NCBI GenBank assembly: GCA_947600335.1
Contig: CANQGB010000003.1
Span: 1-47,923, forward strand
DNA from: an uncultured Bacilli bacterium
GTDB lineage: Bacteria > Bacillota_I > Bacilli_A > RF39 > UBA660
Direction: 5' to 3'
Length of the DNA: 47,923 nucleotides
This document shows positions 22,961-39,766 of this stretch, piece after piece (the stretch's first letter is position 1; each line of letters starts with the position of its first letter). Under the pieces are notes generated by a model. That model was not told where the DNA came from, made no database searches, and worked only from the letters and a program-made list of their open reading frames with translations. The position numbers and the translations under genes are program-made.

Positions 22961-24934
22961 CTATTTCTTAATATTTTTAATATATTCACATATTAAATCA
23001 GCAGTTTGTTCTTTACCAATACTAGAATCAATACATAAATCATAGTTATTTAAATCTAACCAATTTTCTCCCGAAATCAATTCATAATAACTAGCCCTAT
23101 TCTTATCTGACTTGATAATATTTTTCTTGGCTTCCGCTTTAGTATCATGATACATATCCATAACATTTTGAATCCGATAATCCATTGGAGCATAAATCAT
23201 TATTTTAACTAAATTTTTATTATTCTTTAAAACATAATCAGCCGCTCTACCGACAATGACACATGAACCTTTTTGAGCAATCATTTTAATTGCCTTTTCT
23301 TGGGCCACAATTGCATATTTAACTGGTGAAGATGTCAAATACAAATCATGTAATACATTTTGACTTTGATTAATATTCGATACAAATTCTTTATCTAAAC
23401 CACTTTCTTGCGCAGCAATCGCAATCATTTCTTTATAATAGCAAGGAATATTTAACTTTTGAGCCACTAATTCCCCAATTGCTTTTCCTTGACTACCATG
23501 ACATCTCGCAATGGTAATAATCACTCCTTGTTGAGTTTCTTTTAAACTGCTTTCAACATAATTATTTTCCGTGTTTCTATCCAAATGTTTAAAGAAATTA
23601 ATAATTAAGACAACTGTTACTATTAAACCAAGAAAATCCGCAATCGGAGCAGCAATTAAAGCTCCTTTTATTCCCATATATTTCGGTAAAATTATAACTA
23701 ATGGTACAAAGAAAACAATATCTCTAGCTAATGATACTATTGTTGCTTTTAAAGGTTCTCCAACTGCTTGAAAAAAGATAGAACACATTTTAATTAAACA
23801 GGTAAATGTTACTAAAATTAAGAATATTCTAAATGTTAACACAGCAAATTCCATATATAATTCTTCACTTGAACCAAAGATTTTAATAATTACACTCGGA
23901 CATAATTCAAAAACAAGAGTTGATAACAAGCCAATAATCGTTGAAACTATCACAACTGTTTTAAAAGTTTCTTTAACTCGAGCCATATTCTTAGCTCCAT
24001 AGTTATAACCTAAAATTGGTTGAGCTCCTAAAATAATCCCGACAATGATATTTATGACTATTGAAAATACTTTCATAGTAATTCCAATTACTGCGATGGG
24101 AATGTCAGCCCCATATTTACTTAAAGCGCCATATTTAGCTAACATTATGTTACAAACTAAAGAAATAATAACAATACTCATTTGGGTAATAAAAGTAGAT
24201 ACTCCTAATTTAATAACATTTTTAAAAACATTCATATCTAATTTAAAACTATCTAAACATAATTTAAAAGTCTTAGTTCGAGTATAGTAATAAATGGAAA
24301 TTAATAACGTTGCTATTTGACCAATTATGGTCGCATAAGCTGCTCCTTTAATACCCCAATTTAAACCAAAAATAAATACTGGATCTAAAATAATGTTAAT
24401 AATAGCCCCACTAGCTGTTGCTAACATTGAAAATTTTGGTGACCCATCGGCTCTAATGACAGCATTCATACTATTTCCTAACATATAAACGGGAATAGCT
24501 GCTAAAATAATATTATAATAATCTCTAGCCAAAGCAATACTTTTTTCACTTGCACCAAATAAATATAATAAATTATCCCGAAAAATAAAACCTAAGAATA
24601 AAAAAATTATACTTATAATAAAAGATAATAAAATACTATTTCCAATCGCTTTATGAGCATTCTTAGTATCTTTTCGCCCTTGACATAAAGATAAATATGC
24701 GGCTGAACCATCACCAAAACACCAAGCAAATGCTACCGCAATAATCGTAATCGGATAAACAACACCTGTCGCGGCATTGCCTAAATAACCTAAATCACTA
24801 TTACCAATAAAAATTTGGTCAACAATATTGTATAATGAACTAATAAGTAAAGATAAAACACAAGGAACAGCAAACTTAAAAAGTAATTTACCTATTTTTT
24901 CATGACCTAAAAAATTATTATCTTGATTTTTCAT
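22961..24934 (-). CDS. MATE efflux transporter fused to a cytidylate-kinase-like domain
   Basis: This is a 657-residue two-part protein. Residues 1 to about 450 are a 12-span MATE transporter (N-terminal KLLFKFAVPCVLSLLISSLY; the second half begins near KNVIKLGVSTFITQMSIVII). Residues about 470-657 are a cytidylate-kinase-like (AAA/CMK-like) domain: VIITIARCHGSQGKAIGELV (P-loop region), IPCYYKEMIAIAAQESGL, GSCVIVGRAADYVL, then a lid-like ASYYELISGENW stretch. MATE pumps export cationic drugs by H+ or Na+ antiport. The role of the attached domain is unknown. The same fusion is known in gut Bacillota annotations (memory, not checked). GGGAGG precedes the ATG. The 5' leader holds a promoter followed by a terminator hairpin (see 24980-25068). 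Confidence 0.88.
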   Translation of the reverse strand: MKNQDNNFLGHEKIGKLLFKFAVPCVLSLLISSLYNIVDQIFIGNSDLGYLGNAATGVVYPITIIAVAFAWCFGDGSAAYLSLCQGRKDTKNAHKAIGNSILLSFIISIIFLFLGFIFRDNLLYLFGASEKSIALARDYYNIILAAIPVYMLGNSMNAVIRADGSPKFSMLATASGAIINIILDPVFIFGLNWGIKGAAYATIIGQIATLLISIYYYTRTKTFKLCLDSFKLDMNVFKNVIKLGVSTFITQMSIVIISLVCNIMLAKYGALSKYGADIPIAVIGITMKVFSIVINIIVGIILGAQPILGYNYGAKNMARVKETFKTVVIVSTIIGLLSTLVFELCPSVIIKIFGSSEELYMEFAVLTFRIFLILVTFTCLIKMCSIFFQAVGEPLKATIVSLARDIVFFVPLVIILPKYMGIKGALIAAPIADFLGLIVTVVLIINFFKHLDRNTENNYVESSLKETQQGVIITIARCHGSQGKAIGELVAQKLNIPCYYKEMIAIAAQESGLDKEFVSNINQSQNVLHDLYLTSSPVKYAIVAQEKAIKMIAQKGSCVIVGRAADYVLKNNKNLVKIMIYAPMDYRIQNVMDMYHDTKAEAKKNIIKSDKNRASYYELISGENWLDLNNYDLCIDSSIGKEQTADLICEYIKNIKK

Positions 24935-25143: not shown

Positions 25144-28100
25144 TTATTTTAAGGTTGGATAACCATTACTTGAAACAGTATCTAAATTCCAGATAGTTTC
25201 ATCAAAATGTAATGTATCTTTGTAGAAATTTTTATCATGAACATTTTTTTCTGTTGCCACATCTAGTTTTCCTTTAGTAGCATCTGTTACTCGTGAAAAA
25301 CCAATAGCACCAGCATATTCATAACAATTTTCTAATGTATTCAAAATAGTACTTTCTACAGTTCCTGTAAATTTATAAGGAACAAAATCTTCATCATTTT
25401 TTGTATAGCCAGTCATTTTACCAAAAGCAATCGAATTTTTAATTCGTGGTGCATTATAAATATTTCCCACAAATCCCGCATTATATATGCTATCTGCTTT
25501 ATTTCGATTGTCACTAGTTTTTATAACATCAACCTTAGAAACAACATTTTCAACTAATCCACCTAATTGTAAGGCTCCAACAATGCCTCCATTTTCAGTA
25601 TTAAAGCATTCAATGGTTCCTTCAACATAAACATTTTTAATTGAGCCACCATATTTTCTACCAATAAATGTCGAAATATACACTCCCGTACCTTTTACTT
25701 TGGCATTTACTACACTAATATTTTCAAATGCAGAATTTTTATCATCAACAGCTACAACTGGTGCAACACGATGTTTACCTTCTAAAGTAATATTTTCAAA
25801 GCGCATATTTTTAAATGTCGCTCCGTTAGAATTATTAGCAAAAGCTGAAACATTTTCCCATTCTCCAGCATTAGGTTTTATATTCGTAAAATCTTTAATT
25901 CTCAAGTTAGATACACTACCTTCAAAATCATTAAATAATGTATATCCCTTTAAATTTTTAATTGTATAATTATTACCTTCTAATTTTCCCGTAAACGTTT
26001 CTATTATTATAGCATCTATACCAAATATATTAGTAAAAGTTCTACCCTCAAAATCTAAATCAGCAGTTAATTCATAATATTTATCGGGAGCATCACTAAT
26101 TTTTAAGAAATCATCCACAGTAGCTATTTCAATCTTATTTATAATATTAATATCTGAATTAGTATCTAATTTACTATTTAAAGATGGTAATTTACCACTT
26201 TCCACTTTACTTAAATTCCAAATATTGGCATCCCAACCTAAAGTATTTGTATAGAAATTATTAGTTAAACCATTTGTTCTAATAGAAGTTATTTTATCTT
26301 TGAAACTATCAACATCTGTTCTATTTAAAGTTGAAAGTCCAAATGGTTCTTCTAATTCGTAATTATTTTTAAAGTTATTAAACATGTCTTTACCACTACG
26401 GCCATCAAACTTATAAGCATGAGTACCATTTCCTAAAGAAATTGAGTTTTCGATCCGGCCAGTATTCAAAATTTGGCCAATGAAGCCACCACCCATGGCA
26501 CCTGTTGCCGTTACATCAACTTTACTTAAACAATTTTTAATAACTGTGCTACCTTCAGCCCAGCCGACAAAGCCTCCAACATCATTGTGACCTTTTATGG
26601 TACCTAAAGCATAACTATTAGTAGCAATCGAATTATCAAATTGACCGAAGAATCCTCCTACTGCATTACCTGTAGCATCAACATTTCCATTACTTGAACA
26701 TTCTTCCACTATCATTTGGGTTCCATAACCAGTTAAACCACCAGTTCTATCAGTACCACTTACATTGACAGTGTTAATATGAACATTTTTCATATAGCTT
26801 CTTGAAGCACTACCAATTAAGCCACCAGCTTGTTTCGCACTCGTTGTAATATTAATATTATTAGCTGCGACATTGGTAATTTGAGAATTACTTATAACTT
26901 TAGCTAAAGCCCCACAATCTATCTCAGCAGTTATTATACTTGCATTCTCGATATTTAAATTTGTTACACTAGCATAAGTCAATTTCGCAAACAATGGTAA
27001 TTTAATTCCAGTTATTATATGATTATTACCATCAAGTGAACCATAGAAGGCTTCTCTAATAATAGCATTTCCTTCAGTAATACTAGAAACATCAATATCA
27101 TTATCTAAAATAAATTCTCCATGTAAATTACTTTCAATTAAATTTCTAAAATCTTCAGCATTCTTAATGTGAATTTTATCGACATTAGTATTAAAAATAT
27201 CTGATTCAAAATCATTCGTAATTCTCTTAATATGACCATAAATCATTTGTCTAAATATTGCCATACTACTTGTCTTACTATTTTGAACATTATTTGCAAT
27301 ATCATTTTTAACTTTAGTTTCAATTTCTTTCATTAAAGTATCTTTATTCAAATAAGTACTATTATTTAATTTTTCTTCAATTTTCTTATATCTATCTAAT
27401 TGATATTCTTTCCAATTCTTATAGTTACTTACAGCTTTTAAAGCTTCTAAATCAGTTTTATAACCCCATCCTGCATAAGCAGAATATCCGTCATAACCAA
27501 AGTCAGCTAACATTTGATAAGCAATTAAAGTCCAATTGCCTTTTTCGACTAGTCCATTATCATTATGAACTACATACCAATTAGCACTACCTAATAAACT
27601 AGTTCCCTCTCGTGGAATAACAATCTTATTATCCCATAAGTCACTAATATTTTTTAATTTCATCTTTTTAAAGTCTTCAGCCGTTTTGGTAACCAGTTTC
27701 GTACTAATATTAGTAATTGTTTCTTTATCATTTAATTTAACATCCGTACTTGTTTCTTCAACAACTCTTGCTATTTTACTTTGTTCTTCCGGAGTTAATT
27801 TTAAGAATACTTGCGCTTCTAAATAATCTAAAGCTGCATATACATCAAACATCTTTTTATAGAAATCTTCAATTTCTTCTCTTGTATTAATTCGCTCAAA
27901 ATTAAAGTTTGTGGCAATATTAGTATCAAAATTATAATCATATGTATAATTTGGAACTATGCCATATTCGCCAGCACCTTGAGTTAAGAATCCATCTGTA
28001 AAGTATTCAGCATTAGCTCCCGCTCTTCTTCCTGTTCCATCTAGGAAAGTATTTCCATCTTGATTGTGAATAGCTTCATGCGTAAATATTGAATAGAATG

Positions 28101-31100
28101 TTAAAGCCGAATAAATCCAATAAATATCGGTACCATTAGCATAAGCCGAAGCAGCACTATGAACTGTATACTTATTTAAAACCTCAAAGAAAGCTTTATA
28201 TACTGGTTTAACATTTTCTTCATTAGACCAATTCTTATTTGAAGTTTTATCGTAGTTAATCATTGTTCGGCTAACCATATTGCCATAACCTTTTTCACTA
28301 GTTACACCAGCAATTGAATCATAAAATTTAGTTGCTTTATCAGCAAATTGTGTTAATAAAGTCATTCTTTCAGCTTTCGTAGTTTCTGCAAAAGTAGCTT
28401 TACCTAAAGCATTTAAATATTCATGTTCATCCAAGTTTCCAACCATTATACAAGTTGGAATACCTAAGATATATAAATCTTCACCATGATAAGATAAAAT
28501 TGGTAAAATCAACAAATCTCTAGCTTTTAAGTGATCCCAAACTCGATAACGTATTTCCGGATGTCTTTCCGCTTGAGCTTCATAAACAGTACCTGAATAA
28601 TTATCAACAATCCAACTAGCTGGATCATTCTTATACTTATCAATTGTTAAATTCTTTATAAAGTACTCTATAAATGGACCAACACTAAGATCATTAGTTA
28701 AAGGTTTAATATATTTATTAAAATAACTTGGTAGCTTACTTTCCTCATTTATCATTCTTTCCTTATCGCTTGCCATATCTACCATTGTCAAACTTACAGA
28801 TAATGGATTTAATTTATCACTAAAAATATTTCCATCAAAATAAACGATATCACTAATATTAATTCCACCTATTTGAATATTATAGAACCGATCATAATAA
28901 TTATAAGCATATAATAATTTTTCTAAAGTATAATTATTTTCTAAATCTTGAATAACTTTATTTTCTAATATTTCATTTAAGACTGATATACTATACTCAT
29001 CCACATTAGCTAATAATTTTAAAGCAAAACTATCAGCATTATCTTTAACATGAGCATAATTTTCAACAAAAATTCGAGATTCAGTTTCACTAGTCAAAGA
29101 TGCTATATTATTAACATAATTTAATTTTTTTATCCTATCAACTATATAACTATAAACCTTTGATTTAGTATTAATCAAATATTTGCTATACATATAATCG
29201 ATATCTAGTTCATTAATATCATATACGGCTATTCTATCCCCACTATCTTTTAAAGATACATGATAAACAGCTGTATCATCATCTTCAAATATAACTCTAA
29301 TAGTTTTTATAGTTGATTTATTGTTTTGAGCTAAAGCTACTACTTGATTTCCATTTGCATCATAAGCATATACATCTTTAATAACTTTTGTATTTAAAAT
29401 ATGATTAACATCTAAGATATTTCCATCTTCTACATAATACTTAGCATCATAGAAAGGCATTAATTTATACATATTATGATAAGCAATATTACGAGTTGCA
29501 TCATAATTAGCTAAATTTTTAATTCGTGCTAAATCTGGAATAAATATGCCATCAACTGTATTACTTTCCATTTTAGCATTATCTGTATTTTGATATGCTT
29601 TTAATGTTGGATATTGTCCAGAACTTACTTGTGATAAATCCCAAACATCTTCACTCCAACCTAAAGTTTTAGTATAGAATTCTTTGGTTTTTAATTGTTC
29701 TGGAGTAACAACTTTTATACCTTGTATATTTTCTTGAGACACCATATTTGATGTCGATAACTCATATACCTTCGTAGACTTATCACTTATTTTAGAATTT
29801 TGATAAGAACCATAAACTTTTAACCCATAACCATCAAGCTTAGCTTGAGATAAACTAATACAATTTGTTAAGGTAAGGCCTTTTGGATGTCCAACAAAGC
29901 CTCCTCGTGAACCACCTTTACCATTATAATTAGTCATAACATTGGTATAGAAATTTTCAATGATACTATTATCATAAGCTTCACCTACAACTCCACCAAC
30001 TGCATCATTATTCGCATTAAGAGTTCCAGATATAAAACCATTTTTGATCGTAGTTGTATACATCATACCAACTATGCCACCTAATCTTTTAGCGCTTCCT
30101 ACATTAACATTAGTTGCTGAGATATTCTCTAATTGGCTATTTTTTATAATTCCACCAAATAATCCTGAACCAGCATCATTTATAGTACTAAGTTGAACAT
30201 TCTTCATGTGAACATTTTTAATCGTGGCATTTGTTATATTATTAGCAAGTAAACCATTTGCATTAGCCCGAGAATCTATAATTACTAAATTCTCAATCGT
30301 AGCATCTTTTAAACTATCAAATAATGGAATAGACATATTTTTAATAGTATGACCTTGGAAATCGATTGTTCCTGTAAATTCTTGTGGAATTATCGCCTTT
30401 CCTGAAGTTATATTTTTAGCATCAAAATCCGCATTAACTTTATAAGAACCATCTGGATCTTGTTTAATAAGTTCTATTAAAGTATCAACATCTATATTAC
30501 TTGCTATATCACCATTAATACTACCAAAAGTAATTTCTAATTGATTAATTCGACTATTTCCGTTATATTGAACAACATTATCATAATCTAAAATGAATTT
30601 TAACAAACCATCTTCTATTTTATAATCTTTAATTGTTGTATAGAAATCTCTATCATCTTTTAAGTTAACTTGAACAATATACTTACTTAAATCTTGTAAA
30701 TCAGCAATATTAACATTCGAAATCTTTTCAACTTTATTACCTTTTTGCGTAAATAATGTCATACCTAAAACGTTTTTCATTTCTAAGAAACGTTCACCAA
30801 TATTCATTTCTTCACTTAAGATTAATTCATTTGTAATTTCATTTTTACCATTTTCTAAAGTATTCGTATCTAAATCATAATCAACAAATACTTTAAAAAT
30901 ATAGTATTCACTAGTTGTTTTCTTAAATGTTAAAGTATTTTCTCCAACTATAACATCATCATTAGCTACAACAACTCCTTGTTCATTTAAAACATCAATT
31001 TTACCTTTAGTAAATGAATTATCTGTATTTTCTAAATTAAACTTAGCTGTAATAGTCGAATCTTCATTTTCTGTATAACCAAAATTAGTAGCTTTTGGTT

Positions 31101-34100
31101 TATCCTTTAATACCTCGATTTGAACTTGATTATTTTCTTTAATTTCTAAATGTTTATAATTTTCTAAAACAATAGATTCAATTTTAATATCTTTTACTCC
31201 AGCTTCTTTATAACCATCAATTATAACTTTATAACGGTTATTTTCAGATTCTAAAGTATATAATTTACCATTAATTATAGCTTCAATTGGCTTAAACATA
31301 CTAATATTAGTACTAGCAAAAGATAATTCAATTTTCTCATCTTTAGCCAAATATTTTTTCGTTGTAATATCAAAAACTTTTAATTGATAATCAGATATTA
31401 ACTCGACAATTTCACTTGCTAAAACCTCACGATATTGATTTTCCTTATCCTCTTTATTGGTATCTCTATCATATTCAATTTCCATCTTTAAACTATATGG
31501 TTCAGCATTATCAACCGCGAAAGTTACACTATGAGAACCAGGTTCAATAGCTTGAGTCTTAACTGACTTATCACTATTTTTCGTAAGAATAGCTTCTCCA
31601 CTTACAAAACTATCATCATTATCAGTTAATGTATAATAAATCGTTACCGTACTATCATCTGTATTATCTTCTTGATCATCAATAGTTATAGTTGGTTTAT
31701 CTTTTAATACTTCGATTTGAACATTATTTTGGCTAGTTATTTCAACACCATCACTATAAATAAATTTTTTCGCTTTTAATTCTTTAACTCCAGCTGTTCT
31801 AGTAGCCTCTTCTAAAATTACTTGATATAAATTATCGCTTAATTTTATAGCAATACATTCTTCATTATTTACTAAGATTCTAGCAATATCTTCTGATTTA
31901 TTAGTATTTACTCTATAAGTAAGAGCTACTTTTTCACCTTTATTAAAATATACTTTTTCCGTTTTAACCTCTTCAATATCTAAACGTGTTTGTGCAGTAA
32001 CCTCTTTAGTAACAACTAATTCTTCACCACCAACTGCATCCTCAAGACAACTGTAAGAAGCAATTACTTTAACATAATATTTCTCAGTAACTTCTGTTGG
32101 TAAATCCCTATTAAATTGTTTATTTTCAATCTCTTCTTCAGTAAATACGTATCTCGTAATTTCCTCATTATTAGCATTAAATAAAATTACATTAACCCCT
32201 AAAATAGTTTTATCATAGTCGGTTATATCAAATTGAACATTCAATAAATTATTAACAATATCCTCATTTGTTTTAATTTCTGAAATAATTGGTGCTCTTT
32301 TGATTATTGTTAATTTAAGAACATTATCATTATCTATTTTAAAACTTTTACCATTGTCTAATATAATTTCTTCTAATTTAAATTCATTTTCGCCTAAATT
32401 TTCAATTCCTTCTTTTACAGTAATTTCATAATGATCTTGAACCTTTTGAATATCATCATATCTATGACCATTTATTATTACAGCACTTGGTTCATGACTT
32501 GTACTATTAGAACTTACAAAGCCAAGTTGGAAAGCAGCATTTTTTTCAATTGCCATTAATTCTTTACCATTTTGATATGCTTTAAAGCTTCCTACTTTAA
32601 ATTGATAATCAATATTAAATTGTAAATCTTTTGTAACTGTTAAAGCCCCCGTATATTTATCTTTATCAGAAAAATCAGCATTTGTTAAATCGTATTCAAC
32701 CACAATATTTGCTTCATACTTTTCACCATCTACCGCTGGAACAGTTACTTTATTTTGACCATTAGTAATATTTTGAACAACTATTTCTTTATCATTTGAA
32801 TCAGTAATTACAATCCTAGCTTTCGTAATACTAGCATCCTTATCATTTAAATCAAAAGTAATATCTAATTCTTCATTTAAGAAATTTTCTCCTACTGACC
32901 AATTCTTAATTTCTGGAATTTCTTTTAATACATCGATATTAACATCTTTAGCTGTTTTAATTACTTTTTCATTATTTAAAATAACTTTTTCAATATTAAT
33001 ATTTTGAATGCCAGCTCTATCACTTGCTTTTAAAACTACTTGATATGTCCCATCGCTTAAAGTCTCAACTTTATAAGTAGTTCCATTAATAACAACATTT
33101 TCTATTGTAGCCCCATAACTAACATCAGCTGCAAATTTCAAAATAACTTCCGCATTTTTTTCATAAGAATAATTATCTAAACTAACATTAGTAAATGTTA
33201 TTTCATAGTCTAAAGTTTTTTCTAATTTTTGCACTAATAAAGTTAAATCGGTAATGGTTATTTTATTATCACCATTCATATCAGCATTTTCTATGTAAGC
33301 TTTATCAATATTTTCAGAATTAATTAAATAAAGTTCTAAAAGCTCAGCATCAGCATAGTTTACCTCATAATCACCATTTAACTCACCAAGTAATGAATAA
33401 TTGACTGCTAAAGCAACCACCGTTCCAACAAATTGTAGAGAAACTAAGCCAATAGTTGTAAAGAATAAGAAACTATGAAGATTAGTCTTATTATTTTTAT
33501 TTTTATTTTTCTTTTTTATAAACCAATAAGCTAAAACTCCTATTTCAAGGGCAATAACACTTATCACTATTACATAACGTATTTCATTCTTTTTACTTAC
33601 TGCTTTTATATCTTCTATTTCAGTTTTTTCATTTTTATTTGTATTTCTATCATTAGTTGTTGAACTATCCCCACTATTAACATTATTTTCAGTTTTGTTA
33701 TCTTTGTTATCAGTATTATTAGTATTATCATCTGTTCCAATTGTTGGAATAGTTTCTTGAACCTTTATGGCTGAGATAACGGCCTTTTCATTAAAAACAT
33801 TTAAATCTGCTTTACCTTCTGATACCGCTACATCGGCAAAAGTTACTTCCGTATCTTGGGGTAAAATATTATCCCTAACTTTTAAACGAATTTGAACAAT
33901 TTCACTTGGATCTTTAACTCCAACCCGATTAATAGCCACTAATTCTTGGGTATTCGGATTATATTTTAAAGATTCCCACCCATTTAAAGAAATAAAATCA
34001 CTTTGATATACTTTTTCAAAAATGTTTTCATCATAGACCAAAGTAGCTTTATATGCATTAATACCCTTTTCAACATCATTAAAAGTATGCATTTTAAAGG

Positions 34101-34239
34101 TAATTAAAATTTCTTCACCACTTTTAACTTCATAAGAGTTACTAACTGCACTTGCCTTTATTTCAGTTTTGGCCTCGGCTTGTATAAAAGGAACCAAAAC
34201 CCCTAATATTATAAATAGTTTAATTATTGACTTCTTCAT
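25144..34239 (-). CDS. Giant membrane-anchored surface metalloprotease, M26 (IgA1 protease/Zmp) family, with cohesin- and dockerin-like domains
   Basis: This is a 3031-residue protein. In order: signal peptide (1-23); cohesin-like beta-domain (about 25-160); Asn/Asp/Thr linker (160-215); membrane span (221-241), short basic loop KKKNKNKNNK, second span (255-282); dockerin-like pair of Ca2+ loops (about 284-342, LNGDYEVNYADAELLELYL and DMNGDNKITITDLTLLV); four beta-repeats of about 200 residues (345-1150); a GLUG/M26_N beta-helix segment (about 1260-1550); protease domain with HEAIH (2054-2058) and a glutamate 20 residues later in GANAEYFTDG; then two further GLUG beta-helix segments to the end, without an LPXTG. 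The three beta-helix segments each close with W-x-L-S/D-x-V-x-S-G/N-x-x-P-T/S-L. The topology (outside, in, outside) makes the two-span hairpin the anchor. GGGGGA precedes the ATG. Substrate unknown; host glycoprotein or immunoglobulin is inference from the family. Confidence 0.88.
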   Translation of the reverse strand: MKKSIIKLFIILGVLVPFIQAEAKTEIKASAVSNSYEVKSGEEILITFKMHTFNDVEKGINAYKATLVYDENIFEKVYQSDFISLNGWESLKYNPNTQELVAINRVGVKDPSEIVQIRLKVRDNILPQDTEVTFADVAVSEGKADLNVFNEKAVISAIKVQETIPTIGTDDNTNNTDNKDNKTENNVNSGDSSTTNDRNTNKNEKTEIEDIKAVSKKNEIRYVIVISVIALEIGVLAYWFIKKKNKNKNNKTNLHSFLFFTTIGLVSLQFVGTVVALAVNYSLLGELNGDYEVNYADAELLELYLINSENIDKAYIENADMNGDNKITITDLTLLVQKLEKTLDYEITFTNVSLDNYSYEKNAEVILKFAADVSYGATIENVVINGTTYKVETLSDGTYQVVLKASDRAGIQNINIEKVILNNEKVIKTAKDVNIDVLKEIPEIKNWSVGENFLNEELDITFDLNDKDASITKARIVITDSNDKEIVVQNITNGQNKVTVPAVDGEKYEANIVVEYDLTNADFSDKDKYTGALTVTKDLQFNIDYQFKVGSFKAYQNGKELMAIEKNAAFQLGFVSSNSTSHEPSAVIINGHRYDDIQKVQDHYEITVKEGIENLGENEFKLEEIILDNGKSFKIDNDNVLKLTIIKRAPIISEIKTNEDIVNNLLNVQFDITDYDKTILGVNVILFNANNEEITRYVFTEEEIENKQFNRDLPTEVTEKYYVKVIASYSCLEDAVGGEELVVTKEVTAQTRLDIEEVKTEKVYFNKGEKVALTYRVNTNKSEDIARILVNNEECIAIKLSDNLYQVILEEATRTAGVKELKAKKFIYSDGVEITSQNNVQIEVLKDKPTITIDDQEDNTDDSTVTIYYTLTDNDDSFVSGEAILTKNSDKSVKTQAIEPGSHSVTFAVDNAEPYSLKMEIEYDRDTNKEDKENQYREVLASEIVELISDYQLKVFDITTKKYLAKDEKIELSFASTNISMFKPIEAIINGKLYTLESENNRYKVIIDGYKEAGVKDIKIESIVLENYKHLEIKENNQVQIEVLKDKPKATNFGYTENEDSTITAKFNLENTDNSFTKGKIDVLNEQGVVVANDDVIVGENTLTFKKTTSEYYIFKVFVDYDLDTNTLENGKNEITNELILSEEMNIGERFLEMKNVLGMTLFTQKGNKVEKISNVNIADLQDLSKYIVQVNLKDDRDFYTTIKDYKIEDGLLKFILDYDNVVQYNGNSRINQLEITFGSINGDIASNIDVDTLIELIKQDPDGSYKVNADFDAKNITSGKAIIPQEFTGTIDFQGHTIKNMSIPLFDSLKDATIENLVIIDSRANANGLLANNITNATIKNVHMKNVQLSTINDAGSGLFGGIIKNSQLENISATNVNVGSAKRLGGIVGMMYTTTIKNGFISGTLNANNDAVGGVVGEAYDNSIIENFYTNVMTNYNGKGGSRGGFVGHPKGLTLTNCISLSQAKLDGYGLKVYGSYQNSKISDKSTKVYELSTSNMVSQENIQGIKVVTPEQLKTKEFYTKTLGWSEDVWDLSQVSSGQYPTLKAYQNTDNAKMESNTVDGIFIPDLARIKNLANYDATRNIAYHNMYKLMPFYDAKYYVEDGNILDVNHILNTKVIKDVYAYDANGNQVVALAQNNKSTIKTIRVIFEDDDTAVYHVSLKDSGDRIAVYDINELDIDYMYSKYLINTKSKVYSYIVDRIKKLNYVNNIASLTSETESRIFVENYAHVKDNADSFALKLLANVDEYSISVLNEILENKVIQDLENNYTLEKLLYAYNYYDRFYNIQIGGINISDIVYFDGNIFSDKLNPLSVSLTMVDMASDKERMINEESKLPSYFNKYIKPLTNDLSVGPFIEYFIKNLTIDKYKNDPASWIVDNYSGTVYEAQAERHPEIRYRVWDHLKARDLLILPILSYHGEDLYILGIPTCIMVGNLDEHEYLNALGKATFAETTKAERMTLLTQFADKATKFYDSIAGVTSEKGYGNMVSRTMINYDKTSNKNWSNEENVKPVYKAFFEVLNKYTVHSAASAYANGTDIYWIYSALTFYSIFTHEAIHNQDGNTFLDGTGRRAGANAEYFTDGFLTQGAGEYGIVPNYTYDYNFDTNIATNFNFERINTREEIEDFYKKMFDVYAALDYLEAQVFLKLTPEEQSKIARVVEETSTDVKLNDKETITNISTKLVTKTAEDFKKMKLKNISDLWDNKIVIPREGTSLLGSANWYVVHNDNGLVEKGNWTLIAYQMLADFGYDGYSAYAGWGYKTDLEALKAVSNYKNWKEYQLDRYKKIEEKLNNSTYLNKDTLMKEIETKVKNDIANNVQNSKTSSMAIFRQMIYGHIKRITNDFESDIFNTNVDKIHIKNAEDFRNLIESNLHGEFILDNDIDVSSITEGNAIIREAFYGSLDGNNHIITGIKLPLFAKLTYASVTNLNIENASIITAEIDCGALAKVISNSQITNVAANNINITTSAKQAGGLIGSASRSYMKNVHINTVNVSGTDRTGGLTGYGTQMIVEECSSNGNVDATGNAVGGFFGQFDNSIATNSYALGTIKGHNDVGGFVGWAEGSTVIKNCLSKVDVTATGAMGGGFIGQILNTGRIENSISLGNGTHAYKFDGRSGKDMFNNFKNNYELEEPFGLSTLNRTDVDSFKDKITSIRTNGLTNNFYTNTLGWDANIWNLSKVESGKLPSLNSKLDTNSDINIINKIEIATVDDFLKISDAPDKYYELTADLDFEGRTFTNIFGIDAIIIETFTGKLEGNNYTIKNLKGYTLFNDFEGSVSNLRIKDFTNIKPNAGEWENVSAFANNSNGATFKNMRFENITLEGKHRVAPVVAVDDKNSAFENISVVNAKVKGTGVYISTFIGRKYGGSIKNVYVEGTIECFNTENGGIVGALQLGGLVENVVSKVDVIKTSDNRNKADSIYNAGFVGNIYNAPRIKNSIAFGKMTGYTKNDEDFVPYKFTGTVESTILNTLENCYEYAGAIGFSRVTDATKGKLDVATEKNVHDKNFYKDTLHFDETIWNLDTVSSNGYPTLK
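30790..33207 (-). repeat. Four tandem repeats of about 200 codons in the giant protease gene
   Basis: Units begin near residues 345, 545, 752 and 951. Each has a first half with a (E/K)K-x-(A/E)-x-(I/V)-x-L-x-F strand, an INGxxY strand and a V-x-I-E-V-L-K-(D/E)-x-P closing strand. The second half carries LNVQFDITD-like and KxRVVI-like strands. They probably act as an extended stalk holding the protease domain away from the membrane. Confidence 0.65.
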
Positions 34240-38202: not shown

Positions 38203-39009
38203 ATGACCAAACATTACAATTATAAATCTATCATCTTTTTAGCTATTGCCATTGTATTTTTAGGTTTCTCCCTCATTAACTTATATGAATGGTTTACTGA
38301 TAACCAAAAAACTAAAATAATAGAAACTCATATAAATATCACTCCCAAAGAAGAACATCCAAATAATGACAACTTAATCTTAATCAATCCTCCAGAAAAT
38401 CTAAGTGACCCTTACTGGCTTTATCAAGATACGCCTTTTTTAAATATCGATTTTACGCCTTTAATTGCGGAAAATAGAAACACCCAGGCTTGGATTCAAG
38501 TAAATGGTACTAAAATAGACTACCCTGTCGTTCAAACAACCGATAATGAATATTACTTAACCCATTCTTTTGATAATACTTTTAATAAAGCGGGTTGGAT
38601 TTTTGCTGATTTTCGCAACAACTTTATAAACTTAAACAACAATACAATTATATATGGTCATCGTCGCTTAAATGATTCCATGTTTGGTAGTTTAAAATAT
38701 GTCCTAACCGATGAATGGTTTAACAATCAAAATAATCATTTAGTTAAAATATCGACACCTACTAATAATACCATTTGGCAAATCTTTAGTGTCTATGCCA
38801 TACCCGCCGAAAGTTACTATCTCACAGCCTTTTTTCCTAACAATTTAGAATATCAAAACTTTTTACAAGCCATCACCAAGCACAGTAAATACGACTTTGG
38901 TACTACCATTAACTATCAAGATAAAATTCTTACTCTTTCTTCTTGCCAAGATGATTTAGGCAACCGCATCGTAGTTCATGCTAAATTAATCAAAAAAGAA
39001 ACTCGGTAA
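38203..39009 (+). CDS. srtB: Class B sortase
   Basis: This 268-residue protein is anchored by an N-terminal membrane span (about 9-30), followed by a linker and the sortase domain (about 85-265). The catalytic triad is visible: His153 in IYGHRRLNDSMFGSL, Cys248 in LTLSSCQDDL and Arg255 in GNRIVVHAKL. The SSC...R-VVHAKL pattern, the extended helix region before the His and the IQVNGTKIDYPVVQTTDNEY start are class B features. Class B enzymes recognise NP(Q/K)T(N/A/G)-like signals. The convergent gene 39029-39766 encodes a protein ending in exactly that kind of signal (NPQTAD). The ribosome site is AGGTGA. It covalently attaches surface proteins to the cell wall. Confidence 0.9.
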   Translation: MTKHYNYKSIIFLAIAIVFLGFSLINLYEWFTDNQKTKIIETHINITPKEEHPNNDNLILINPPENLSDPYWLYQDTPFLNIDFTPLIAENRNTQAWIQVNGTKIDYPVVQTTDNEYYLTHSFDNTFNKAGWIFADFRNNFINLNNNTIIYGHRRLNDSMFGSLKYVLTDEWFNNQNNHLVKISTPTNNTIWQIFSVYAIPAESYYLTAFFPNNLEYQNFLQAITKHSKYDFGTTINYQDKILTLSSCQDDLGNRIVVHAKLIKKETR

Positions 39010-39028: not shown

Positions 39029-39766
39029 TTAAATATACAATTTTTTTAAATTATAGAAAACTGTTCCTAATCCCATCGTACCAATTAAAAGACTTAATCC
39101 GATATAGTCAGCAGTTTGTGGATTAGTTGGAGTTTCAAACATATTTAATACTTCTTGTAAAACTAATTCATCACCTGAATTAATTGTTCTAATCATTCCA
39201 TTCATTTCTATAATAGCATCCTTAGAATCATCAGGAACCCATAAAGTTGGAGCATTTTCTTTTTCTGTTGTATTTACAATCTTAGTATCATTATCCATTT
39301 TTAAATGCGATACTTCTGTAACTCCTTTACCTTGAGATAATTCTATTCCTCCAAAACCATTACCAGATACATCAATAGTTCCTTCTAATTTAATAGTACC
39401 TCCATTTACTAATAAAGCTGCATTACCTCCTGTTAACTTAATATTCCGGAAAGTAGCTTGCGTTTTATAAACTTGGAAAATATAAATTCCACTCCAAATT
39501 TTATTATCGCTAGAACCATTATCACCAAAAGTACCAACATACTTAACTGTATGACCTTTACCATCAATAACTACTGGTCTTAAAATATTAATTTTTTCCG
39601 TTGTATTAATATCTTCGCCAAGAATTATTTCGGTTACTTCATTATTACTTAAAGCTGACTTTAAATCTGCTTGATTATGAACAGTCACACTACTAGCTGC
39701 CTTAACTTTCAAAAATGGAACGACTAATAACATTATAAATATACTTAAAAAAATTGACTTTTTCAT
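39029..39766 (-). CDS. Wall-anchored beta-helix surface protein with NPQTAD sortase B signal
   Basis: This 245-residue protein has a signal peptide at residues 1-24 (ending in KVKAAS). Residues about 28-200 form a short right-handed beta-helix of pectate-lyase type (VTVHNQADLKSAL, EIILGEDINTTE, RPVVIDGKGHTVKYVG, FRNIKLTGGNAALLVNGG). The C-terminus is a sorting signal: NPQTAD (39107-39124), hydrophobic IGLSLLIGTMGLGTVF, basic tail KKLYI. NPQT-type motifs are the class B sortase target, and srtB is convergent just 20 bases away. Enzyme activity is not evident, as the fold alone is common in adhesins and carbohydrate-binding proteins. Confidence 0.85.
   Translation of the reverse strand: MKKSIFLSIFIMLLVVPFLKVKAASSVTVHNQADLKSALSNNEVTEIILGEDINTTEKINILRPVVIDGKGHTVKYVGTFGDNGSSDNKIWSGIYIFQVYKTQATFRNIKLTGGNAALLVNGGTIKLEGTIDVSGNGFGGIELSQGKGVTEVSHLKMDNDTKIVNTTEKENAPTLWVPDDSKDAIIEMNGMIRTINSGDELVLQEVLNMFETPTNPQTADYIGLSLLIGTMGLGTVFYNLKKLYI

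Follow-up and report, generated by a model that had tools for sequence, protein, structure and literature searches.

The window analysed here, a 47,923-nucleotide stretch from an uncultured Bacilli bacterium (GenBank assembly GCA_947600335.1, contig CANQGB010000003.1), encodes a giant predicted surface protease of the M26 family in which a cohesin domain, a membrane hairpin and a dockerin share one chain. The arrangement is real, conserved and undescribed in the literature searched, and it is likely to represent an M26 protease built from known modules in which a cohesin–dockerin clasp ties an anchor to the protease. We propose that an anchor part (signal peptide, cohesin and first membrane span) is joined to a dockerin–M26 part, and that the cohesin grips the dockerin made from the same gene; such a clasp would hold the protease on the cell surface even if the chain were cut at the membrane. 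We give this reading a probability of roughly 60%.

Domain organisation of the protease

The gene lies on the reverse strand, the stretch ahead of its ATG (AGGGGGAT) resembles a ribosome-binding site, and the protein divides as follows:

25144..34239 (-): complete M26 protease gene of 3,031 codons and a stop; predicted surface protease
34171..34239 (-): signal peptide 1, residues 1-23, predicted cut after AEA; read from the sequence
33760..34170 (-): cohesin domain, residues 24-160
33574..33759 (-): linker rich in Asn, Asp and Lys, residues 161-222, largely disordered in the model; ends without an LPXTG-like motif
33517..33573 (-): membrane span 1, residues 223-241, from hydropathy
33472..33516 (-): six-lysine loop, residues 242-256, predicted intracellular; would serve as the n-region of span 2
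33406..33471 (-): membrane span 2, residues 257-278; matches the stand-alone relatives' signal peptide, with a signal peptidase I site predicted after ALA-278
33211..33390 (-): type I dockerin, residues 284-343; two calcium-loop repeats whose recognition positions are occupied by Y-A and I-T
30820..33210 (-): stalk made up of four related units, ending at residue 1140
29560..30819 (-): M26 N-terminal region, about residues 1141-1560, end approximate; Pfam match 1119-1345
27193..29559 (-): M26 protease domain, about residues 1561-2349, outer limits approximate; Pfam M26_C 1671-2211; HEAIH 2054-2058, E2078
25147..27192 (-): C-terminal M26_N/GLUG stretches, about residues 2350-3031

A Pfam scan of the whole protein found M26_N and the type I dockerin, to which a piecewise scan added M26_C, GLUG repeats and a borderline cohesin. 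The M26 assignment is carried by the scores (M26_N 108.2 bits over a threshold of 27.7, M26_C 74.9 over 22) and by the HEAIH motif, which is followed 20 residues on by E2078, both at invariant columns in a 43-row alignment of relatives. The HExxH motif is present in 62/64 long fused relatives, in 29/29 long split or stand-alone M26 proteins and in 17/17 split loci holding more than 2,400 residues after the dockerin, a tally limited to the long loci as many of the split contigs end inside the protease. The exact 20-residue glutamate spacing occurs in 33 of the 64 fused proteins and in none of the 31 split loci, where the spacing differs. The N-terminal LPXTG by which metallo-IgA1 proteases are strictly defined is absent from this protein, and a Pfam scan of its whole length up to E 1 gave no G5 domain. 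A giant open frame that surfaced when the genomes of the order were searched proved to be an artefact of masked bases.

The dockerin scored 43.9 bits over 22.9 and has two calcium-loop F-hand repeats, the loop residues of which are conserved in 16 aligned relatives; the pairs Y-A and I-T stand at what we take, from type I dockerins, to be its recognition positions. Residues 24-160 have the fold and the sequence character of a cohesin, an identity decided by fold comparison after weak sequence results: the single domain searched against the PDB by sequence returned nothing relevant, and a 17-row profile gave weak cohesin matches (E 0.019-0.048) ranked below an unrelated match (E 0.012). A preliminary description, made from the sequence alone, had placed a cohesin-like domain (residues 25-160), a membrane hairpin, dockerin-like repeats (284-342) and a stalk of four repeats in one 3,031-residue M26 chain; the fold comparison and Pfam bear out the first and third of these, the stalk indeed consists of four related units, and the combination in a single chain is confirmed. 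Beside the protease gene, at 22961..24934 (-), a single open-reading frame joins a MATE transporter to a cytidylate-kinase-like domain.

Conservation of the layout among relatives

A search with residues 1-345 gathered 54 proteins including this one, whose precomputed Pfam lists hold M26_C in 53, Dockerin_1 in 50 and both in 49; by a simple hydropathy scan 52 of them have two spans downstream of the signal peptide, and P0043 and P0045 have one. The 288 genomes of the window's order were also searched by M26 alone, and 48 of the 54 M26 frames found there carry a cohesin in the same open frame. Twenty of those 48 frames were read by eye, and all 20 have the signal peptide, the hairpin and two dockerin repeats. 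The remaining six, which count against our proposal, comprise one at a contig end, one running into masked sequence and four unexplained, and a further 32 cohesin frames in these genomes are not M26. In a set of 74 M26 proteins, biased in that the N-terminal layout served as bait, both domains occur in 58 and the dockerin alone in 14 (12 of a stand-alone form, two with truncated starts); one protein has neither (P0072) and one, P0073, a cohesin without a recognised dockerin, the last again counting against the proposal.

Of 70 relatives, 16 have an LPXTG-like motif immediately ahead of span 1, 12 have a TG remnant and 42 have neither; this protein belongs to the last group, with a span and a basic tail in place and the sorting motif absent. 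The domain calls of the preliminary description and the missing LPXTG were right, but it had missed that the layout recurs in relatives and that some of those relatives carry LPXTG-like motifs.

The same two parts in neighbouring genes

Genome contigs were scanned with a dockerin–stalk alignment, and the cohesin was then located with the cohesin profile. The resulting 71 loci comprise 33 fused genes (31 plus two frameshifted), 31 split pairs, five loci cut by contig ends and two without a cohesin; L093 and L100, which had brought the split count to 33, look like frameshift-broken fused genes. Cohesin and dockerin therefore occur together, fused or in neighbouring genes, in 64/71 loci, and five of the other seven are those cut by contig ends. 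In every one of the 31 split pairs the cohesin gene lies directly upstream on the same strand, 134-210 nt separating its stop from the first dockerin codon, and in 30 the dockerin gene has a signal-peptide-like start (L054 is without one in frame). A second protein search likewise found 12 M26 proteases that start with a signal peptide followed directly by the dockerin, with no cohesin.

In 30/31 loci the split cohesin gene finishes with its own dockerin, and Pfam applied to 21 such genes gave Dockerin_1 in 21/21 and Cohesin in 18/21; since it is a dockerin that closes these genes, where a membrane span would be expected, the two halves do not correspond to a fused protein merely divided, a further point against the proposal. 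At locus L051 three cohesin genes follow one another, two of which end in LPKAG and a membrane span, the nearest being of this type with the cohesin–dockerin gene before it. At L049 there is a 1,263-residue protein with a cohesin and, at its end, dockerin-like repeats, together with a cohesin gene bearing LPQTG. Both L051 and L049 are small scaffold systems around M26 genes. Judged from these gene structures, the tail of the anchor part is exchangeable (sorting signal, plain span or dockerin) and the cohesin–dockerin pairing is constant.

A tree of 92 proteins, of which 69 are fused and 23 split or stand-alone, was built from 450 residues following the dockerin start. It needs six changes between fused and split forms, of which at least four are forced by well-supported (starred) branches, against a mean of about 21 with shuffled labels, on a data set whose stand-alone members include proteins with upstream DNA not seen and some of whose rows are long-branched or of odd composition. 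The two forms have interconverted several times, as one would expect if the halves did not have to be covalently joined. Elsewhere in the window a sortase (38203..39009, +) adjoins a protein that carries a pectate-lyase-like adhesive domain and terminates in NPQTA plus a hydrophobic stretch (39029..39766, -). A tblastn search of the 71 loci at E 1e-6 matched neither of the two, so that no conserved sortase neighbour was found.

Predicted docking of cohesin and dockerin

AlphaFold2 modelled the 324-residue module with pTM 0.71 and pLDDT 78.8, 51 residues being disordered. Either rigid half, the cohesin or the hairpin plus dockerin, makes up only about 42% of the residues, so a pTM of 0.71 needs both to be placed together, and the structure prediction that the preliminary description had called for thus fits docking. 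The control, the adaptor of L063 with its dockerin of the other kind, gave pTM 0.53 and pLDDT 87.9, although its short linker may forbid docking anyway, and docking was judged on pTM alone. Related bacteria encode both halves as neighbouring separate genes, and the pair here is therefore likely to snap together; from the pTM and the co-occurrence combined we predict that the cohesin binds the dockerin.

The recognition residues agree across the two forms, repeat 1 having Y in 68/70 fused and 24/24 split or stand-alone proteins and repeat 2 mostly V-T or I-T; in the adaptor gene's own dockerin I-N predominates (25 of the 30 first repeats found in 35 cohesin open-reading frames). The preliminary description had left three options open, namely a clamp within one molecule, a link between neighbouring molecules and the docking of other dockerin proteins. 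Co-occurrence in 64/71 loci favours the clamp, within a molecule or between products of the same gene, and the third option loses ground to the differing dockerin described below.

The hairpin as permanent anchor or cutting site

The two-span hairpin that the preliminary description took for a membrane anchor is present, but its second span reads as a signal peptide and may be cut. Span 2 ends in VVALA, six residues ahead of the first dockerin glycine, and follows a loop with six lysines, giving it the n-region (KKKNKNKNNK), hydrophobic span and ALA of a type I signal peptide; its position is that of the signal peptide at the start of the protein in the 12 stand-alone proteins and in 30/31 split loci. 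Given this match, the hairpin may serve for cleavage instead of anchoring the chain permanently, with signal peptidase I cutting, as we infer, after ALA-278. A small-x-Ala site 3-13 residues before the dockerin is kept in 67/70 non-redundant fused and 23/24 split or stand-alone proteins, whilst near the end of span 1 such a site is found in only 20/70 fused proteins. When the 22 residues before the dockerin were shuffled, small-x-Ala still arose in a mean of 51.5 and a maximum of 59 of 70, the count being weak against the shuffle because the region is alanine-rich; it can be taken as supportive, not strong, and the same place in separate genes is probably the better argument. As for the enzyme, the genome gave no match to PF10502, the standard signal peptidase family, which weighs against the proposal, but it encodes a TIGR02228-type (archaeal-type) signal peptidase on contig 10 along with five sortases.

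The best-surviving alternative, though we consider it unlikely, is that the chain stays whole, the hairpin being a permanent anchor and the cohesin–dockerin pair only folding the N-terminus into a rigid base on the membrane. A pTM of 0.71 equally fits docking inside one chain, and a divergent subfamily (17 of the 20 order proteins read) keeps the cohesin, hairpin and dockerin; there the first calcium loop follows span 2 at a distance of 0-4 residues, and only 7/17 have a small-x-Ala site. Cutting cannot then be general, and in that subfamily the chain probably stays whole. In the subfamily of the present protein, by contrast, the likeness of span 2 to stand-alone signal peptides and the near-constant small-x-Ala site both speak against an uncut chain.

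Other possible partners in the genome

The search for further cohesin- and dockerin-bearing proteins that the preliminary description had proposed was run on the protease's own genome. Profile and Pfam searches found no second cohesin, and a single other dockerin (contig C23, L003) on a protein that Pfam resolves as SH3 plus dockerin and that we call glucosaminidase-like from a reading of its sequence. The gene after it encodes a membrane protein with a cadherin-like domain. One cohesin and two dockerin proteins, in a genome about 91% complete from which a partner could be missing, do not make a cellulosome-like system, and a multi-enzyme scaffold in this genome was set aside as unsupported with one cohesin found. 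Dockerins occur in 236/288 genomes of the order and this M26-type cohesin in 70, so that most genomes with dockerins are without it; many dockerins in the order have no recognised partner.

It is accordingly improbable, in our estimate, that the cohesin serves to receive other dockerin proteins, chiefly the glucosaminidase-like one, with the protease's dockerin binding neighbouring copies. Scaffoldins carrying a cohesin plus a dockerin are classic, the split relatives have just such an adaptor and the genome does hold one other dockerin protein, but that dockerin has S-A at the recognition positions of both repeats against Y-A and I-T here, and the distribution over the order's genomes also weighs against such a role. 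That one or both domains are relics without a binding function is very improbable: dockerins are common in the order without this cohesin, yet both domains persist among relatives of 26-82% identity, with calcium-loop and recognition residues conserved, and through repeated fusion or fission.

Proposed mechanism

The clasp can be laid out in five steps. The two domains, the order in which they stand, and the occurrence of the same parts as separate adjacent genes in 31 loci are observed directly. From the topology, the cohesin and the dockerin would both face the outside of the cell, where the predicted model and the co-occurrence suggest that they dock. Signal peptidase I would then cut after ALA-278, leaving the cohesin on span 1 and a protease whose new N-terminus lies close to the dockerin; in relatives with an LPXTG the cohesin would instead be wall-linked by sortase. 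The clasp would finally present the protease at the end of its stalk and might permit later release, for example at low calcium.

Comparison with known systems

The M26 family consists of large surface enzymes, some of which cut IgA1, and the N-terminal LPXTG of these proteases poses a puzzle: sortase joins the residue before its cut to the wall and thus keeps the piece ahead of the motif, whilst the protease lies after it. One account gives the M26 IgA1 proteases an N-terminal LPXTG, a cut 56 residues after it and a G5 domain (PMC9637739), and two others call this LPXTG distinguishing or atypical (PMC7939560, PMC2705793). For the pneumococcal enzyme a further report gives a mature form of residues 154-1963, and it calls such enzymes covalently linked to the cell by sortase A (PMC7695701); the cut in the pneumococcal protein would fall, as we infer, just past its hairpin. 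Since sortase keeps the piece before its cut, it is difficult to see how the part after it could be linked covalently, and re-association of two pieces would resolve this. The family described here gives the puzzle a concrete, testable answer, the same two parts occurring in one gene and in two neighbours.

In its widest form the idea is tentative, and we hold it less firmly than the clasp itself. The M26 precursor might be a two-protein machine from one gene, in which an internal signal peptide is cut and the clasp replaces the peptide bond; the 'atypical N-terminal LPXTG' of the streptococcal IgA1/Zmp proteases might be a normal C-terminal sorting signal, belonging to an N-terminal anchor protein, and M26 proteases as a family might be anchored by re-association, not covalently. 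The step to streptococci would be one of analogy. Like the M26 IgA1/Zmp proteases of S. pneumoniae and G. haemolysans, the present protein has M26 homology, HExxH and an N-terminal anchor region ahead of the protease, and the LPXTG-like motif of its 16 relatives adds to the likeness. It differs in having no LPXTG, no G5 domain that was found, an added cohesin and dockerin, and a four-unit stalk.

The C. perfringens cohesins of NagJ and the GH33 sialidase (2jh2, 2vo8) have partner dockerins that sit on other proteins, unlike the present case, where both halves are in one chain or in neighbouring genes. A passage on multi-toxin complexes suggests the same placing of the partner dockerins (PMC12997984). 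In the titles, abstracts and passages covered, no M26 enzyme with a cohesin or a dockerin is described. Dockerin-bearing proteases as such are known from cellulosomes and mucinolysomes, among them an S8 protease of C. thermocellum, a cysteine peptidase of R. flavefaciens and Limousia peptidases (PMC12484212, PMC12997984). In these, as is proposed here, attachment of the protease to the cell runs or is believed to run through a dockerin and a cohesin; theirs is to separate scaffoldins, whereas here the cohesin is fused or adjoining and is the only one found in the genome. If our proposal is true, the protease would be a case of a cohesin–dockerin pair with which the product of a single gene clasps itself, and nature would here supply a compact protein coupler.
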